A stretch of 6,815 nucleotides of DNA, taken from contig JAGHAJ010000104.1 of the NCBI GenBank assembly GCA_021161545.1, positions 1 through 6,815 of the forward strand. Direction: 5' to 3'. This document shows positions 1 to 6,815 of the stretch, piece after piece. Made by a program: the position numbers and the translations under genes. Source of the DNA: Synergistota bacterium (GTDB taxonomy: Bacteria > Synergistota > JAGHAJ01). The first letter of the stretch is position 1; the number at the start of each line of letters is the position of its first letter. The notes under the pieces were generated by a model. The model ran no database searches, was not told the DNA's origin, and saw only the letters and a program-made list of their open reading frames with translations.

Positions 1-712
1 CAATTTGAATAGATTTAATCCAGTTGAAGGCATAAAAAGGATGTTCTCCTTGCGTTCTGTAGTTGAATTGGCTAAATCTATAGCTAAGGCGGTAATTATA
101 GGTTATATCTTGTATATTTCTATAAAGGGTGCGTATCCGTTTCTTATAGATACTATGAAGATGTCTCCACTTGTTGCTATGATAGAAGTCGGTAAGATAG
201 TTTTCTGGACAGTAGTTAAGGCAATGGTTGTGCTTTTGATACTTGCTGTTGTGGATTATTATTACCAGAGGTGGGAATTTGAGAAGAACATAAGGATGAC
301 GAAGCAGGAGATTAAAGATGAGTATAAGCAAACAGAAGGTGATCCTCAAATAAAGGCACGAATAAGGAGAAAACAACTGGAACTTGCCAAGAAGAGAATG
401 ATGCAGGAGCTGCCAAAGGCAGAAGTTGTTATAACTAACCCTGTATTTATTGCAGTTGCTTTGAGGTATGATCCGGATGTTATGAACGCTCCTGTGGTTG
501 TTGCCAAAGGTCAAAGATTGATAGCACAGAAAATAAAAGAAATAGCAATGAAGTATGATATCCCTATTGTTGAGAACAAACCTCTTGCGAGAGTTCTCTT
601 TTTTAACGTGGAGGTAGGAGAGGAGATTCCACCAGATTTGTATCAGGCGGTAGCAGAGTTATTGGCATTTGTTTATAATATTAAGCGTAAGAATATAGCT
701 GAGGTGGTTTAG
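1..712 (+). CDS. flhB: Flagellar export gate/switch protein FlhB, 5'-truncated by window edge
   Basis: FlhB is an inner-membrane component of the flagellar type III export apparatus. Its cytoplasmic domain switches substrate class from rod/hook to filament. The reading frame is open to the window edge (first whole codon at base 2), and the first visible residues (FNPVEGIKRMFS) match an internal FlhB segment, so the TTG at base 5 is an internal Leu and not a start. About 236 codons are visible; the family is usually about 350-380 residues, so roughly 120 N-terminal residues are missing. Counting from base 5, two hydrophobic segments lie near residues 25-45 and 65-85 (the last two of four membrane helices). 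A charged linker follows (MTKQEIKDEYKQTEGDPQIK), then the cytoplasmic domain with PVVVAKG and ENKPLARVLF. The autocleavage motif, normally NPTH, is NPVF at residues 145-148 (bases 437-448). The stop codon directly abuts the flhA start. Identification is very secure. Confidence 0.97.
   Translation, partial: NLNRFNPVEGIKRMFSLRSVVELAKSIAKAVIIGYILYISIKGAYPFLIDTMKMSPLVAMIEVGKIVFWTVVKAMVVLLILAVVDYYYQRWEFEKNIRMTKQEIKDEYKQTEGDPQIKARIRRKQLELAKKRMMQELPKAEVVITNPVFIAVALRYDPDVMNAPVVVAKGQRLIAQKIKEIAMKYDIPIVENKPLARVLFFNVEVGEEIPPDLYQAVAELLAFVYNIKRKNIAEVV
701..707 (+). promoter_or_regulatory. Ribosome binding site supporting the TTG start of flhA
   Basis: GAGGTGG lies five bases upstream of the TTG at 713 and inside the last codons of flhB. 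It justifies the non-ATG start and implies translational coupling between flhB and flhA, because the flhB stop (710-712) is immediately followed by the flhA initiation codon. Confidence 0.75.
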
Positions 713-2776
713 TTGAATAATACGGGTCTCACTACAAATTACACGTGGTTGAAATACAGCGATATAGTGGTAGCAGTTGCTGTAGTCATGGTTGTTGTTA
801 TGATGGTTATTCCTCTGCCACCATATGTGTTGGACATACTTATATCTTTTAACATCACATTTGGTGTTTTGTCTCTTTTGATGACATTTTATATAGGTAA
901 ACCACTGGATTTTTCAGTGTTTCCCTCATTATTATTGGTGGCTACACTTTATAGGTTGGCGTTGAATGTATCTACTACGAGGTCCATATTGCTTCATGCA
1001 TATGCGGGTGAGGTGATAGTTGCCTTTGGAAGATTCGTAGTGGGTGGAAATGTAATAGTTGGTATTATAGTCTTTCTGATACTCGTTATAATTCAATTTA
1101 TAGTTATCACAAAGGGTGCTGAACGGGTGGCTGAAGTTGCAGCGAGGTTTACCCTTGATGCTATGCCCGGTAAACAGATGAGTATAGATGCTGACTTGAA
1201 TGCAGGACTGATAACAGACGCGGAAGCAAGGGCAAGGAGAGCTGAAATACAGAGGGAGGCAGATTTTTATGGTGCTATGGATGGTGCTTCAAAGTTTGTG
1301 AAAGGAGATGCGATAGCTGGTATCATTATTACGATAATAAATATAGTGGGTGGATTGTCTGTAGGTGTACTGCAGAAGGGTATGTCTTTATCTGAAGCCG
1401 TTAGTACGTATACTATATTGACTGTTGGGGATGGTTTATCAGCGCAAATTCCAGCTTTGATATTGTCTACAGCTACTGGTATAATAGTTACAAGGGCAGC
1501 GTCTGAACATAATCTTGGAAGGGATCTTGTCAGACAGCTTACATCCCAGCCGAGGCCTTTGTTTATTGCTTCGGGAATGTTGCTCTTCCTTGGAGCGATT
1601 CCGGGACTACCTACTGTGCCTTTTTGGGTTTTGGGGGCTGCAATGGGTGGTTTAGCTTATTCCATGAGAAGAGCGGCAGTAAAGGAGAAGGTGGTTTCGA
1701 AGGAAGAGGCCAAGAAGGTAGAAGAGAAAAGAAAGGGACCGGAAGATGTTTCTTCTCTTATACAGGTCGACCCTATGGAGATAGATATAGGGTATAGTTT
1801 AATACCACTGGTTGACCCGAAACAGGGAGGGGATATTCTTGATAGAATAACCATGATAAGGAGACAGATGGCAATGGAGATGGGTATAATAGTTCCTCCT
1901 ATAAGGATAAGAGATGATATGAGGTTGGAACCCGATGAATATGTTATAAAGATAAAGGGTGCAGATGTGGGAAGGGCAAAACTGATGGTGGACCACTTTC
2001 TTGCTATGAATCCAGGTGTGGCTGAAGAAGAGATAGAGGGTATTCCCACTACGGAGCCTGCCTTTGGCTTACCTGCTGTGTGGATTACGGAGGATGTAAA
2101 ACACAAGGCAGAGAGCCTTGGATATACTGTGGTTGATCCGCCATCGGTGATGGCTACGCATCTCACTGAAATCATAAAGAGATATGCTGCAGATTTACTG
2201 ACACGGCAGGATGTGAGAAAGTTAATAGATATGGTAAAAGAGAATTACCCGGCTGTAGTGGAAGAGATGTCAAAGGTTCTGGAGGTAGGGGATGTGCAGA
2301 AGGTTCTTCAGAACCTTTTAAGGGAAGGGATTCCTATAAAGGATATGGTTACAATACTTGAGACGCTTACGGATTATGCCAAGGTGACAAGTGATGTTGT
2401 GCTCCTGACTGAGTATGTAAGGGCATCCTTGGCGAGGCATATAACACAGCTTTACCAGTCTCCAGATGGGATAATTCGTGTTATAACACTCTCTCCAGAG
2501 ATAGAGGATGCCGTTTCTTCTGGTGTTAGCAGGACGGAAACTGGTATAAATATTGCTGTTGACCCAGCATTAGCATCGAAAATAGTTAATAATCTGGCTA
2601 AGGTTGTAGAGAATGTTGCTTCAAAGGGAGTACAACCAGTAGTGCTGTGTAGTCCGAAGATAAGATATTACTTTAAGATTTTTATACAACATAATTTCCC
2701 AACACTCGTTGTGCTATCTTATAATGAGATTTCTCCGACTGCTAAAGTTGAATCTGTTGGAGTGGTGACACTGTGA
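713..2776 (+). CDS. flhA: Flagellar export gate protein FlhA
   Basis: FlhA forms the nonameric export gate of the flagellar type III system. It couples proton flow to export and docks chaperone-substrate complexes through its cytoplasmic ring. The 687 residues match the usual 680-700. The N-terminal half is membrane-embedded, with hydrophobic segments near residues 17-33, 39-61, 70-80, 109-132, 200-220, 240-260, 280-300 and 302-315. Family signatures include LYRLALNVSTTRSILL (79-94) and the FHIPEP loop (about 135-200) with MPGKQMSIDADLNAGLI and ADFYGAMDGASKFVKGD; the Asp of KGD (D199) corresponds to a conserved acidic residue thought to act in proton coupling. A Lys/Glu-rich linker near 320-345 leads to the cytoplasmic domain, which ends in the typical VVLSYNEISP segment. 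The start is TTG with a good ribosome binding site and no gap after flhB. The end overlaps the flhF start by one base. Nothing essential appears to be missing. Confidence 0.98.
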   Translation: MNNTGLTTNYTWLKYSDIVVAVAVVMVVVMMVIPLPPYVLDILISFNITFGVLSLLMTFYIGKPLDFSVFPSLLLVATLYRLALNVSTTRSILLHAYAGEVIVAFGRFVVGGNVIVGIIVFLILVIIQFIVITKGAERVAEVAARFTLDAMPGKQMSIDADLNAGLITDAEARARRAEIQREADFYGAMDGASKFVKGDAIAGIIITIINIVGGLSVGVLQKGMSLSEAVSTYTILTVGDGLSAQIPALILSTATGIIVTRAASEHNLGRDLVRQLTSQPRPLFIASGMLLFLGAIPGLPTVPFWVLGAAMGGLAYSMRRAAVKEKVVSKEEAKKVEEKRKGPEDVSSLIQVDPMEIDIGYSLIPLVDPKQGGDILDRITMIRRQMAMEMGIIVPPIRIRDDMRLEPDEYVIKIKGADVGRAKLMVDHFLAMNPGVAEEEIEGIPTTEPAFGLPAVWITEDVKHKAESLGYTVVDPPSVMATHLTEIIKRYAADLLTRQDVRKLIDMVKENYPAVVEEMSKVLEVGDVQKVLQNLLREGIPIKDMVTILETLTDYAKVTSDVVLLTEYVRASLARHITQLYQSPDGIIRVITLSPEIEDAVSSGVSRTETGINIAVDPALASKIVNNLAKVVENVASKGVQPVVLCSPKIRYYFKIFIQHNFPTLVVLSYNEISPTAKVESVGVVTL
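2298..2319 (+). other. Strong short hairpin inside flhA followed by TTTT
   Basis: A perfect palindromic pair AAGGTTCT / AGAACCTT (2300-2307 and 2310-2317) can fold into a stem of about 9 pairs with a UUCA loop. The stem is extended by a G-U pair (2299/2318) and an A-U pair (2298/2319). The descending arm runs into TTTTA, which gives an intrinsic-terminator-like shape, though the stem is short and the T run is only four bases. It encodes an ordinary FlhA segment (QKVLQNLL), so it may be a by-product of codon choice. A role in attenuation or mRNA processing is only a possibility. Confidence 0.3.
2759..2765 (+). promoter_or_regulatory. Ribosome binding site of flhF
   Basis: GGAGTGG sits in the last codons of flhA. 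It is 7 bases from a possible GTG start at 2773 and 10 bases from ATG at 2776, so spacing does not decide between them. The ATG is preferred because it overlaps the flhA stop (TGATG) and gives an N terminus (MKFAKKRIFIA) close to other FlhF proteins. Confidence 0.6.
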
Positions 2777-3966
2777 TGAAATTTGCCAAGAAGCGCATAT
2801 TCATAGCTAATACCGAGTCGGAAGCAGTAAGGATGGCCAAGGAGAGCTTGGGGAGCAATGCTGTTATTATATCTTCTCGTAGGATAAAGAAGGGGGGATT
2901 CTTGGGGCTTTTTGCGAAGAAGATGGTGGAAGTTACAGCAGGCGTGCCGGTGGAGGAAGAAAAGAAAAGGGGAATAGATTTTGATATCTTGGCTCAACTG
3001 CTTTCAAGGAGGCATGCAGAGGAAAGTGCGATTCCCGAAAAAAATGGGAATACCCAAAGTAGTGATATAGCTGTGCAGATCCAAGAGATGAAGAATATGA
3101 TTGCTACTTTTATAGAACATACGCTTCCTTCTAAGAATGGTGATATGTTCTTTAGCACGCTTCCACAATCCCTGAAGGGACTGTACAATAAAATGATCGA
3201 GAATGAGGTGAATGAAGGTATAGTTAAGGGTATATTTAGTGAGTTCTTGAAAGAGATTCCTAAGGAAGAGGATCTTGAGGGCAAGGAAGAGATTGTAAAC
3301 AAGCTGTTGGAATATGTTAGTAGGAAGATTCCTGTTTCTGGTCCTATAGTGGTAGATGATGGTAAAACTCCTATGGTGGTAGTTATGGTTGGTCCCACTG
3401 GTGTTGGAAAAACTACTACTATTGCTAAATTAGCTGCTATATATACCTTATATGAAAGGAAGGATGTTGCCCTTATAACGGCAGATACCTACCGGGTAGC
3501 TGCTGTGGAACAATTGAAAACTTATGGTAAAATTATAGGTATACCTGTTGAGGTAGTTTTTACTCCTCAGGAGATAAGACAGGCAGTGGAGGAGCATATG
3601 GATGCCGATCTCATCTTGATAGATACAGCAGGTAGGAGTCAGCATGATGAGATGAAGATGTCTGAACTCAAAGCATATATTGAAGGTGCGGAGCCGACAG
3701 AGACACACCTTGTTCTGAGTGCTACCACCAAATATAAAGACCTTGAGGATGCGGTTGAAAGATTCAGCTGTGTCCCTTTGGATAAGTTTGTCTTTACAAA
3801 GTTGGATGAGACTACAACTTTTGGTAATATACTGAATATAGTTGTGAAATATAGGTATCCTTTGTCTTATATAACAAATGGGCAGAATGTTCCTAATGAT
3901 ATAGAGGTGGCAGATTCCATGAAAATAGCAAGGGGACTTCTCGGTATGGAAGTATTTTATAGTTAG
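2776..3966 (+). CDS. flhF: Flagellar biosynthesis GTPase FlhF (SRP-family)
   Basis: FlhF is the third SRP-type GTPase, beside Ffh and FtsY. It acts at the membrane to place new flagella and is controlled by FlhG. From ATG 2776 it has 396 residues, typical for the family. The N-terminal B domain (about 1-60, with RIFIANTESEAVRMAKESLGSNAVIISSR) is followed by a variable acidic linker (about 60-120), a helical N domain (about 120-195) and the NG GTPase domain. GTPase motifs are intact: G1 P-loop GPTGVGKTT (206-214), DTYR (237-240) followed by AAVEQLK, G3 DTAGR (283-287), G4 TKLD (341-344) and the closing GQNVPNDIEVAD segment. GTG at 2773 is an alternative start that would add one Met. The gene overlaps flhA by one base and lies 11 bases before flhG, its functional partner. 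An A7 run (3038-3044) lies in the linker. Identification is very secure. Confidence 0.97.
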   Translation: MKFAKKRIFIANTESEAVRMAKESLGSNAVIISSRRIKKGGFLGLFAKKMVEVTAGVPVEEEKKRGIDFDILAQLLSRRHAEESAIPEKNGNTQSSDIAVQIQEMKNMIATFIEHTLPSKNGDMFFSTLPQSLKGLYNKMIENEVNEGIVKGIFSEFLKEIPKEEDLEGKEEIVNKLLEYVSRKIPVSGPIVVDDGKTPMVVVMVGPTGVGKTTTIAKLAAIYTLYERKDVALITADTYRVAAVEQLKTYGKIIGIPVEVVFTPQEIRQAVEEHMDADLILIDTAGRSQHDEMKMSELKAYIEGAEPTETHLVLSATTKYKDLEDAVERFSCVPLDKFVFTKLDETTTFGNILNIVVKYRYPLSYITNGQNVPNDIEVADSMKIARGLLGMEVFYS

Positions 3967-3977: not shown

Positions 3978-4877
3978 ATGGTGGATCAGGCACAGCAGTT
4001 GAGAAATTTGGTTAAAAAGTCCAGCAAGATACCGCTTAAACGGGGACAGTTCAAGGTTAACCTGTCGAGGGTTATAGCAGTTGCAAGTGGTAAGGGTGGT
4101 GTTGGAAAGACTAATTTTGTTGCGAACATGGGTATTACTATGTCGCGTTTGGGTAAGAGGGTGATTATAGTAGATGCTGACCTTGGTCTTGCAAATGTTG
4201 ACCTTGTGTTTGGTATTAGTCCCAAATATCATCTGGGTCATGTAATATCTGGAGAGAAGAAGCTTAGTGAAATAGTGGTTGATGCTCCAGAAGGGGTGAA
4301 AATTGTTGCAGGTGGTGCTGGTATAGCAGAACTTGCTAATATGAACGATACAGATAGGGTGAGGTTTATAGGGAGTTTGGGAGAGCTTGAAGATATGGCT
4401 GATATTATCCTCATAGATACAAGTGCTGGTATATCAAACAATGTTTTAGGGTTTATCTTAGCTGCAGACGAGGTTATTATAATTACAACTACAGAACCCA
4501 CTGCTATAAGGGATGCTTATGGGGTTATAAAAGTACTTGCAAGAGAAAACAGAGAAATTGATATGAAACTTGTAGTTAATATGGTTGAAGATGAAGAGGA
4601 AGCAGAGGATGTTGCAAATAGGATAAGGATGGTCGTTAGTCAGTTTCTTGGCTCTAACATAGAGTATATCGGTTACATACTGCGGGACAGTGGTGTGCAG
4701 CGTGCAGTCTTGCGATCGGAACCTTTTGCTATTGCCTTTCCTAAATCGAAGGCAGCAAAGTGTATCTCTGAAATAGCGGGTAGGTTAGTGCACCTTGAAA
4801 TGGAAGGGCGTGCCCAGGGAAAGGGTATAAAATCGTTTTTGTTCAGGTTACTGCGACTTAATAGTAGGAGGAAATAA
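3978..4877 (+). CDS. flhG: MinD/ParA-type ATPase FlhG (YlxH/FleN), flagellar number regulator
   Basis: FlhG is a MinD-like ATPase that limits flagellar number or pattern by stimulating the FlhF GTPase and by interacting with C-ring components. The 299 residues fit the family. The N terminus carries DQAQQLR (3-9), the DQAxxLR activator motif known to contact FlhF, so the start at ATG 3978 is well supported. The ATPase core has the deviant Walker A GKGGVGKT (38-45) with the signature Lys (K39), VDADLGLANVD (65-75) as switch I region, and IDTSAGI (146-152) with D147 as the Walker B/switch II Asp. The C terminus (about 282-299, IKSFLFRLLRL plus basic residues) looks like the amphipathic membrane-targeting helix of MinD/FlhG proteins. 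It lies 11 bases after flhF, as expected for the pair. Its stop codon is in the same frame as the following PilZ gene, nine bases upstream of that ATG. Confidence 0.97.
   Translation: MVDQAQQLRNLVKKSSKIPLKRGQFKVNLSRVIAVASGKGGVGKTNFVANMGITMSRLGKRVIIVDADLGLANVDLVFGISPKYHLGHVISGEKKLSEIVVDAPEGVKIVAGGAGIAELANMNDTDRVRFIGSLGELEDMADIILIDTSAGISNNVLGFILAADEVIIITTTEPTAIRDAYGVIKVLARENREIDMKLVVNMVEDEEEAEDVANRIRMVVSQFLGSNIEYIGYILRDSGVQRAVLRSEPFAIAFPKSKAAKCISEIAGRLVHLEMEGRAQGKGIKSFLFRLLRLNSRRK
4866..4871 (+). promoter_or_regulatory. Perfect but distant Shine-Dalgarno for the PilZ gene
   Basis: AGGAGG occurs in the last codons of flhG and is the strongest ribosome binding site in the window. It is 15 bases from the PilZ ATG at 4887, well beyond the usual 5-10. 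Only TTT, ATC and GAT codons lie between the flhG stop and that ATG, so no common start codon sits closer in this frame. Initiation may depend on ribosomes that have just terminated at flhG. Confidence 0.55.
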
Positions 4878-4886
4878 TTTATCGAT

Positions 4887-5564
4887 ATGGAATTATCCAA
4901 GCTTTTGAGACCAGGTGATAAGGTGTGGTTAGAGGTGCTTGCGGGCAATTATAAGGGTAGTTATCCAAGCGTGGTGGAAGGTGTAGGTAGGGATGCCATA
5001 GTAGTTGGGCACCCTTTTGTAAAGAGTGCGTTGCTCCCATTGGCGCACGGTACGAAGGTTAGGGTTACCTTTAAGGGAAGGGGGGCACTTTATACCTTTG
5101 AGAGCAGAGTTAAAGGTAGAGGAATTGAAGGAGTTTTAGTCCTGTATCTGGAGTTGCCGGAAAAAATAGACAGGATTCAGAGGAGAAGGTTTGTTAGATT
5201 GGAAGTGATACTACCGTTTTACTATAAAAAGGGTAATGAGGAGAAGTATAAAAGTGGTATGATAAAGGATATAAGTGGCTCTGGTGTGAGGGCTGTGGTT
5301 GATAAGGGTATAAATGTGGGTGATACTCTCCAGGTGTTTATTGATCTTTATGGTAAGAGTAAGCCAAATAAGGTAGTTGATATGGGTGGAATAATAGCAG
5401 TAAAGGCGGTTGTTGTGAGACAGGTGATAAATCCGAATTTTAATGATAAGAAGAGGAAAGAGGTTGGGATGGAGTTTGTGGAGATGTCTGAAAAGGATAG
5501 GCAGAAAATTGTAAGGTTTATATTTGAAAAAGAGAGATTATCACGGCAGAAGGGGTTGTTGTGA
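4887..5564 (+). CDS. YcgR/MotI-type flagellar brake, PilZ-domain c-di-GMP receptor
   Basis: The 225-residue protein has an N-terminal beta-rich YcgR-like domain (about 1-90, LRPGDKVWLEV start, no signal peptide) and a C-terminal PilZ domain (about 95-220). The PilZ c-di-GMP motifs are intact: RxxxR within QRRRFVR (R100-R104) and D/NxSxxG as DISGSG (D128, S130, G133). The downstream conserved segment ends in GMEFVEMSEKDRQKIVRFIFEKER, typical of PilZ proteins. Related two-domain proteins (E. coli YcgR, B. subtilis MotI/DgrA) bind c-di-GMP and slow the motor through MotA or the C-ring. The same role here is inferred from domains and from its place between flagellar and chemotaxis genes. It is in frame with flhG across a single TAA. 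Its stop ends one base before the cheB start. The domain call is strong; the partner protein is unknown. Confidence 0.9.
   Translation: MELSKLLRPGDKVWLEVLAGNYKGSYPSVVEGVGRDAIVVGHPFVKSALLPLAHGTKVRVTFKGRGALYTFESRVKGRGIEGVLVLYLELPEKIDRIQRRRFVRLEVILPFYYKKGNEEKYKSGMIKDISGSGVRAVVDKGINVGDTLQVFIDLYGKSKPNKVVDMGGIIAVKAVVVRQVINPNFNDKKRKEVGMEFVEMSEKDRQKIVRFIFEKERLSRQKGLL
5548..5555 (+). promoter_or_regulatory. Ribosome binding site that fixes the TTG start of cheB
   Basis: AGAAGGGG, inside the end of the PilZ gene, is 10 bases upstream of TTG 5566. The alternative in-frame TTG at 5524 has no convincing ribosome binding site, would overlap the PilZ gene by 41 bases, and would add 14 residues unlike any receiver-domain N terminus. 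TTG 5566 is therefore preferred. Confidence 0.65.
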
Positions 5565-5565
5565 A

Positions 5566-6618
5566 TTGCCAAAGATTAAGGTAATGGTAGTAGATGATTC
5601 CGCATTTATGAGAAAGGTTATCAAGGATATGCTTGAAGAGGACCCCGATATTGAGGTAGTGGCTACTGCAAGGGATGGTATGGATGCCATAAAGAAGTTG
5701 GTAGATATAAGGCCAGATGTAATTACGCTTGATTTAGAGATGCCACGCCTTAATGGTCTGGATACATTGGGCTATATAATGAGTGAAACACCTACACCGG
5801 TGATAATGCTGAGTAGCTACACTCAAGAGGGTGCTGATGCGACATTAAAAGCCCTTGACTATGGAGCAGTGGACTTTGTTCCAAAACCTTCTGGTCCGAT
5901 TTCTATGGATATAAGAAAGGTAAAGGATGAACTGATAAGAAAGATAAAGTCAGCTGTTGGTATAAACCTTAGTATGGTGAAGTTTAAAGAGGTTTCTCCG
6001 ATTAAAAAGAAGAAGGAAGTCAAAGGTGTACCTTATTTGAAGACTGCTGAGAAGATACTTGTTATAGGAACGTCTACAGGAGGGCCTCGGGCGCTACAAG
6101 AGGTGGTTCCTAAAATTCCTGCAGATATAGAATCTGGCATACTAATTGTTCAACATATGCCTCCAAAGTTTACAAGATCTCTTGCAGAAAGGTTGGACTC
6201 TTTATCTGAACTCGTAGTAAAGGAGGCAGAAGATGGCGATAAGGTATCGCCGGGTGTTGCTCTTGTTGCACCTGGTGATTACCATATGGTTGTAGAGAGG
6301 GATGACAAGGAGTTTAGGGTAAGGAATGTCAAGACTCCACCTATAGGTAAGCTTAGACCTGCAGTTGATGTTACGATGTTATCTGTTGCAGAGGTGTGGA
6401 ATGGTTTTATTGTTGGTGTTATAATGACAGGTATGGGGAAAGATGGAGCAAAGGGCATGTTGATGATAAAGAAAAGGGGTGGTAGGACCATAGTTGAGGA
6501 TAAATCTACCTGTGTTGTGTATGGAATGCCACGGGCAGTTGTGGAGATAGGGGCTGCCGATATTATAGTTCCTCTCTATGAAATTCCCAAAAAGATAGTT
6601 GAGATTATAAAAAGCTGA
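5566..6618 (+). CDS. cheB: Chemotaxis protein-glutamate methylesterase/deamidase CheB
   Basis: CheB removes methyl groups from, and deamidates, glutamyl sites on chemoreceptors, and CheA phosphorylation activates it. Starting at TTG 5566 it has 350 residues, the usual length. The receiver domain (about 1-120) has acidic pair D10-D11, phospho-acceptor D56, S83 in MLSSYT and K107 in PKPSG. A short Lys-rich linker (about 140-158, with IKKKKEVKG) leads to the methylesterase domain (about 162-350), with the catalytic triad S170 in GTSTGGP, H197 in VQHMPP and D293 in TGMGKDGA. All key residues are present. The first residues from this start (MPKIKVMVVDDSAFMR) are a textbook receiver N terminus. It starts one base after the PilZ stop and ends 15 bases before cheA, its kinase. 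The pairing with cheA matches the Firmicute fla/che order. Confidence 0.97.
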   Translation: MPKIKVMVVDDSAFMRKVIKDMLEEDPDIEVVATARDGMDAIKKLVDIRPDVITLDLEMPRLNGLDTLGYIMSETPTPVIMLSSYTQEGADATLKALDYGAVDFVPKPSGPISMDIRKVKDELIRKIKSAVGINLSMVKFKEVSPIKKKKEVKGVPYLKTAEKILVIGTSTGGPRALQEVVPKIPADIESGILIVQHMPPKFTRSLAERLDSLSELVVKEAEDGDKVSPGVALVAPGDYHMVVERDDKEFRVRNVKTPPIGKLRPAVDVTMLSVAEVWNGFIVGVIMTGMGKDGAKGMLMIKKRGGRTIVEDKSTCVVYGMPRAVVEIGAADIIVPLYEIPKKIVEIIKS

Positions 6619-6633: not shown

Positions 6634-6815
6634 ATGGGGATGGATCTTTCTCAGTATATGGATACGTATTTAGAGGAATCTGCTGATCAACTTCAGAGGC
6701 TGAATGAGCTACTATTGGATTTGGAAAAATCTCCAACAGAACTTTCTATACTGAATGAGGTTTTTAGGGTAGCACATACATTAAAAGGAATGTCTGCTAC
6801 TATGGGCTTTAATAA
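6634..6815 (+). CDS. cheA: Chemotaxis histidine kinase CheA, N-terminal Hpt segment, truncated at window end
   Basis: CheA is the cytoplasmic kinase that phosphorylates CheY and CheB in response to chemoreceptors through CheW. Only the first 60 codons plus two bases are visible, and the frame is open to the edge; whole proteins are about 650-700 residues. The visible part is the start of the P1 histidine phosphotransfer domain: DLSQYMDTYLEESADQLQRLNELLLDLE, then VFRVAHTLKGMSATMGF, in which H48 is the phosphorylated histidine of the conserved HTLKG motif. The start is ATG 6634 with a good ribosome binding site; ATG 6640 would remove two residues. It follows cheB by 15 bases, so the two are very likely co-transcribed. 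Identification is secure despite the truncation. Confidence 0.95.
   Translation, partial: MGMDLSQYMDTYLEESADQLQRLNELLLDLEKSPTELSILNEVFRVAHTLKGMSATMGFN

Follow-up and report, generated by a model that had tools for sequence, protein, structure and literature searches.

Background

Published papers call the self-cleavage site of FlhB strictly or highly conserved NPTH. The locus described here raises the question of whether an FlhB in which Thr and His are both replaced still cleaves and still serves as the switch of flagellar export. The DNA analyzed (hereafter the window) is an entire 6815-base contig, G000:C210. The draft genome to which it belongs totals 1.58 Mb over 288 contigs; its completeness is 82% and its contamination 3%. 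Its host is uncultured, and the flagellar system of this organism is known here from its genes alone. The only rank common to the window genome and every other genome searched is the phylum Synergistota, so the window genome represents a deep, isolated lineage of that phylum. An earlier note reported NPVF in an otherwise canonical FlhB and suggested that the lineage may cleave slowly, cleave without help from the His, or switch export specificity by another route.

Methods

A total of 277 FlhB rows, representing 268 distinct segments, were aligned. They were drawn from Synergistota, from samples of three further phyla, and by scanning genome contigs with search peptides that omitted the motif. 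The three samples represent the phyla of genomes G185 (a desulfobacterial MAG), G187 (Bacillota) and G188 (Duganella, Pseudomonadota) and consist of top-scoring genes plus a hand-picked spread and are not random; eight genes of the genome-contig scan were fetched twice. Conserved columns (n = 65) were those at least 80% conserved among the 268 distinct segments. The FlhB tree was inferred by maximum likelihood with the two variable motif columns omitted, and the AlphaFold2 model was built from 49 aligned sequences.

Results

The window and its FlhB

The window carries the following features:
2-712, + strand: flhB, 5'-truncated (Pfam PF01312 positions 113-335, E 3.9e-95; AlphaFold2 model with the FlhB/EscU cytoplasmic fold)
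437-448, + strand: site of self-cleavage, N-P-V-F at residues 146-149, with the cut predicted to fall at Asn146/Pro147
713-2776, + strand: flhA (Pfam FHIPEP, E 3.2e-283)
2773-3966, + strand: flhF, SRP54-type GTPase (Pfam SRP54, E 3.6e-49; gene order)
3978-4877, + strand: flhG / MinD-type ATPase (Pfam AAA_31 and CbiA; gene order)
4887-5564, + strand: YcgR-like PilZ protein (Pfam PilZNR and PilZ)
5566-6618, + strand: cheB (Pfam Response_reg and CheB_methylest)
6634-6813, + strand: start of cheA, encoding the Hpt domain and truncated where the contig stops (Pfam Hpt, E 1.7e-11)

The resulting order, flhB-flhA-flhF-flhG-pilZ-cheB-cheA on a single strand, is the conventional one for flagellar and chemotaxis genes. 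The flhB gene lacks its 5' end because the contig begins there, and the 112 missing positions of the family profile precede the contig start. The 236 codons present cover the cytoplasmic domain in full and the transmembrane region in part.

Bases 437-448 read AACCCTGTATTT, that is, AAC CCT GTA TTT in the flhB frame, and encode N-P-V-F within the peptide ITNPVFIAVALRYDP. NPVF thus stands in place of NPTH exactly as first reported, with Asn and Pro retained. The description of the remaining protein as canonical is likewise borne out, with the consensus residue occurring at 61 of the 65 conserved columns and Val148 (Thr to Val) being one of the four exceptions. The full NPTH is absent from the window, as it is from 85 of the 277 FlhB rows, and it is therefore not a defining feature of the family.

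In the AlphaFold2 model (mean pLDDT 87), strands at residues 142-146 and 150-155 flank the cleavage site, so that Asn146-Pro147 is predicted to lie between them, in the cytoplasmic domain. The model matches solved cytoplasmic domains of FlhB, EscU, YscU, SpaS and PscU with Z scores of 13-18; for FlhB/EscU domains Z is 14-18, and for 6z0w it is 18.1. FlhB crystals show an exposed, flexible PTH loop (PMC3640470).

Spectrum of the motif

Asn and Pro are invariant in all 277 rows, and they alone are invariant among the four motif residues in this sample. The position of Thr (P2') is occupied by nine different residues (T 247, V 15, E 6, Q 3, I 2, and S, L, D and M once each), and that of His (P3') by ten (H 215, T 30, R 17, M 6, Q 2, F 2, K 2, and S, E and L once each). 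Exact NPVF was found in the window only. Among 89 Synergistota proteins, we counted NPTH in 35, NPTT in 30, NPTR in 11, NPVM in 4, and NPTM, NPVH and NPTQ in 2 each, with single occurrences of NPVF, NPTF and NPTL. His is accordingly present in 37 and missing in 52, and Synergistota is, as a phylum, mostly without it. NPTH accounts for 34 of 49, 41 of 49 and 47 of 50 proteins in the three other, non-random phylum samples, where the exceptions include NPVH, NPEH, NPQH, NPVR and NPVK. The view that Thr and His are near-invariant stands for many phyla but fails for Synergistota. In the desulfobacterial sample NPQH, NPEH or NPDH was found at L177, L258, L260, L249, L252 and L243; the Thr position therefore also accepts polar and acidic residues.

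FlhB proteins without His are fixed over whole genera. Within genus g10, the intact FlhB genes carry NPTR (L021, L084 and L085 among the g10 loci). Two other genomes of this genus, G015 (99% complete) and G066 (87%), carry no FlhB beyond a small FlhB-C fragment, a pattern that resembles loss of the flagellum with this fragment as its relict. A separate oddity was seen in a Bacillota genome (L213 of G571), where an in-frame TAG at about base 1516 falls in the FlhB N-terminal GEKTE-x-ATPRKR motif at a position where relatives have a residue; possible readings are recoding, a start farther downstream, or an error.

Our literature search found no paper on NPEH, NPTR, NPTT or NPVH in FlhB and none on frequent absence of His from Synergistota FlhB. 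As far as that search goes, the frequent loss of His in this phylum is a small unreported point.

Nearest relatives

The nearest proteins belong to family f3 (L027, L032, L081 and L082), in which all four members carry NPVM. The FlhB tree groups the window with f3 (SH-aLRT 91), and in the FlhA tree f3 is nearest to the window by path distance, the fork itself being open. On the FlhB tree, at least 10 changes between His and non-His and at least 18 changes of the P3' residue are needed, and two between Thr and non-Thr. Together with the NPVM of f3, the latter count means that Thr to Val fits one change common to the window and its sister family. In Synergistota the His position drifts between the residues H, T, R, M, F, L and Q.

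No compensating residue elsewhere in FlhB survived correction for relatedness. Column 171 (after AKG) tracks the His state with 0.61 bits in the raw data, but an independent-pair test gave a median p of 0.5, and we regard the association as phylogenetic or unproven; the window FlhB has neither Lys nor Arg there. The LARxL[YF] position was also considered as compensation and rejected: the window protein and other relatives alike have F there, and the residue does not clearly follow the motif.

FliK, flagellin and small FlhB-C-like proteins

A FliK gene occurs at G000:C235 (Flg_hook, E 2.2e-19), adjoining an FlgE/F-type gene, and the window genome has three Flagellin_N matches. The presence of FliK and flagellin genes argues for the usual FliK-FlhB switch. 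Absence of FliK was rejected as a cause of the relaxed motif, since FliK was found in 15 of 15 genomes tested.

The earlier note had advised a check for a second, canonical FlhB. None was found in the 82%-complete assembly, which holds just a 90-aa FlhB-C-like protein without the motif. On the - strand of G000:C186 (L002, 1361-2589), a 319-aa FliK-like protein with a weak C-terminal Flg_hook domain is directly followed by this 90-aa protein, and the pair adjoins a YraN-like and an rnhB-like gene, both named by eye from sequence. The Flg_hook and FlhB-C pair recurs in f3 and other Synergistota genomes. Small FlhB-C-like proteins occur in most flagellated genomes searched, in NPTH carriers and non-carriers alike. 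Being present whatever the motif, they do not explain NPVF.

Cleavage of Thr and His mutants

PDB entries of EscU offer a comparison with laboratory variants. In those for T264A (3bzv) and H265A (3bzx), as in the native protein (3bzl), a separate chain of 83 residues begins its alignment at the scissile Pro; we take this to mean that both mutants are cleaved. N262A (3bzp), N262D (3bzr, 3bzs) and P263A (3bzt) are single 137-residue chains; a further P263A entry, 3c03, holds both split and single-chain forms. In Xanthomonas HrcU, cleavage is abolished in N264A, reduced in P265A and only slightly affected in T266A and H267A (PMC3040844). The mutant and structural data, with the NPEH of Vibrio FlhB (6s3l, 8z5s), agree with a reaction that would require Asn, Pro and the fold, and neither Thr nor His. 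The mutant data concern single alanine changes in injectisome homologues, and the reaction could still be slower with Val and Phe together; the literature yielded no cleavage assay of an FlhB with both Thr and His changed.

Discussion

The window most probably encodes the normal, functional, self-cleaving FlhB of a deep Synergistota lineage, in which the Thr and His positions are tolerated variables. The observations behind this reading are the sequence, the range of residues found in natural variants, the predicted fold, and the presence of FliK and flagellin genes. The cytoplasmic domain would fold like those of other FlhB/YscU proteins, and a strained turn between two strands would drive cyclisation of the Asn side chain, cutting the chain between Asn146 and Pro147. 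Asn and Pro would be what the reaction requires; the two residues that follow would sit on an exposed loop, displaced once the chain is cut, and could vary. Cleavage would then permit the usual FliK-triggered shift from rod and hook to filament export. We consider that the window FlhB very probably cleaves at Asn146/Pro147, presumably at an ordinary rate, and participates in a FliK-dependent switch. Of the proposals made at the outset, cleavage without help from the His is probably correct, in keeping with the natural variation at both positions, the split chain of EscU H265A and the near-normal cleavage of HrcU H267A.

The proposal of unusually slow cleavage, according to which Val-Phe slows the reaction so that switching comes late in this lineage or cleavage serves it as a timer, is improbable. 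Outside Synergistota the two positions most often hold Thr and His, which therefore have some selective value, and the HrcU substitutions do affect cleavage (PMC3040844). That effect is slight, however, both EscU mutants are split, Thr and His vary in several phyla, and non-His proteins are fixed in whole genera, with NPVM in the sister family. We give still less credence to a switch by another route, in which the 90-aa FlhB-C-like protein would supply the cleaved half in trans and make cleavage of FlhB unnecessary. Such a paralogue does exist beside a Flg_hook-domain gene, and the C-terminal domain of HrcU functions in trans, as has been reported for a Helicobacter homologue (PMC3040844). The same paralogue nevertheless occurs in most genomes searched, carriers of canonical NPTH included, and shows no association with NPVF; moreover, Asn-Pro would not be retained were cleavage unnecessary, and the FliK and flagellin genes are in place.

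There is practically no probability that the motif reflects faulty sequencing or assembly, or that the gene is a decaying pseudogene. The fragmented, incomplete and 3%-contaminated draft assembly is what could be said for such an explanation, but it is refuted by NPVM in four independent relatives. In addition, two neighboring codons are altered, the frame is open with its conserved columns largely kept, and flhA-flhF-flhG are intact downstream. The earlier argument that the change needs several base substitutions, and so is no sequencing error, is upheld.

In Synergistota, the exposed loop after the scissile bond might be a freely evolving surface on which His has been lost or regained repeatedly while Asn-Pro stays fixed, and its residue may tune cleavage rate or FliK binding in each lineage. 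We offer this as a speculation that is rather unlikely to hold; under it NPVF would be, with NPVM, the most altered loop found in the phylum. The findings amount to a small correction to the description of the motif and a set of natural variants for testing the role of His. No new mechanism is indicated.

Comparison with known systems

Salmonella and Aquifex FlhB (PDB 3b0z, 3b1s) have the same cytoplasmic fold and Asn-Pro scissile bond as the window protein and about 50-55% identity to it over the C-terminal half, but carry NPTH. The EscU T264A and H265A proteins are laboratory counterparts of the loss of Thr or His and are split at Asn-Pro; they differ in belonging to an injectisome, in being single alanine substitutions and in their 33-36% identity. 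Small proteins of the FlhX/YlqH type, exemplified by that of G000:C186, share the C-terminal half of the Pfam family with the window FlhB but have neither its transmembrane part nor an Asn-Pro site. A natural non-Thr residue after Asn-Pro is found in Vibrio FlhB (PDB 6s3l, from V. mimicus, and 8z5s), which reads NPEH and, unlike the window, retains His. The closest parallel is f3, whose FlhB proteins have Met rather than Phe at the His position, but share with the window protein 56-60% identity over the compared region and Val after Asn-Pro, in genomes that likewise contain FliK and flagellin genes.
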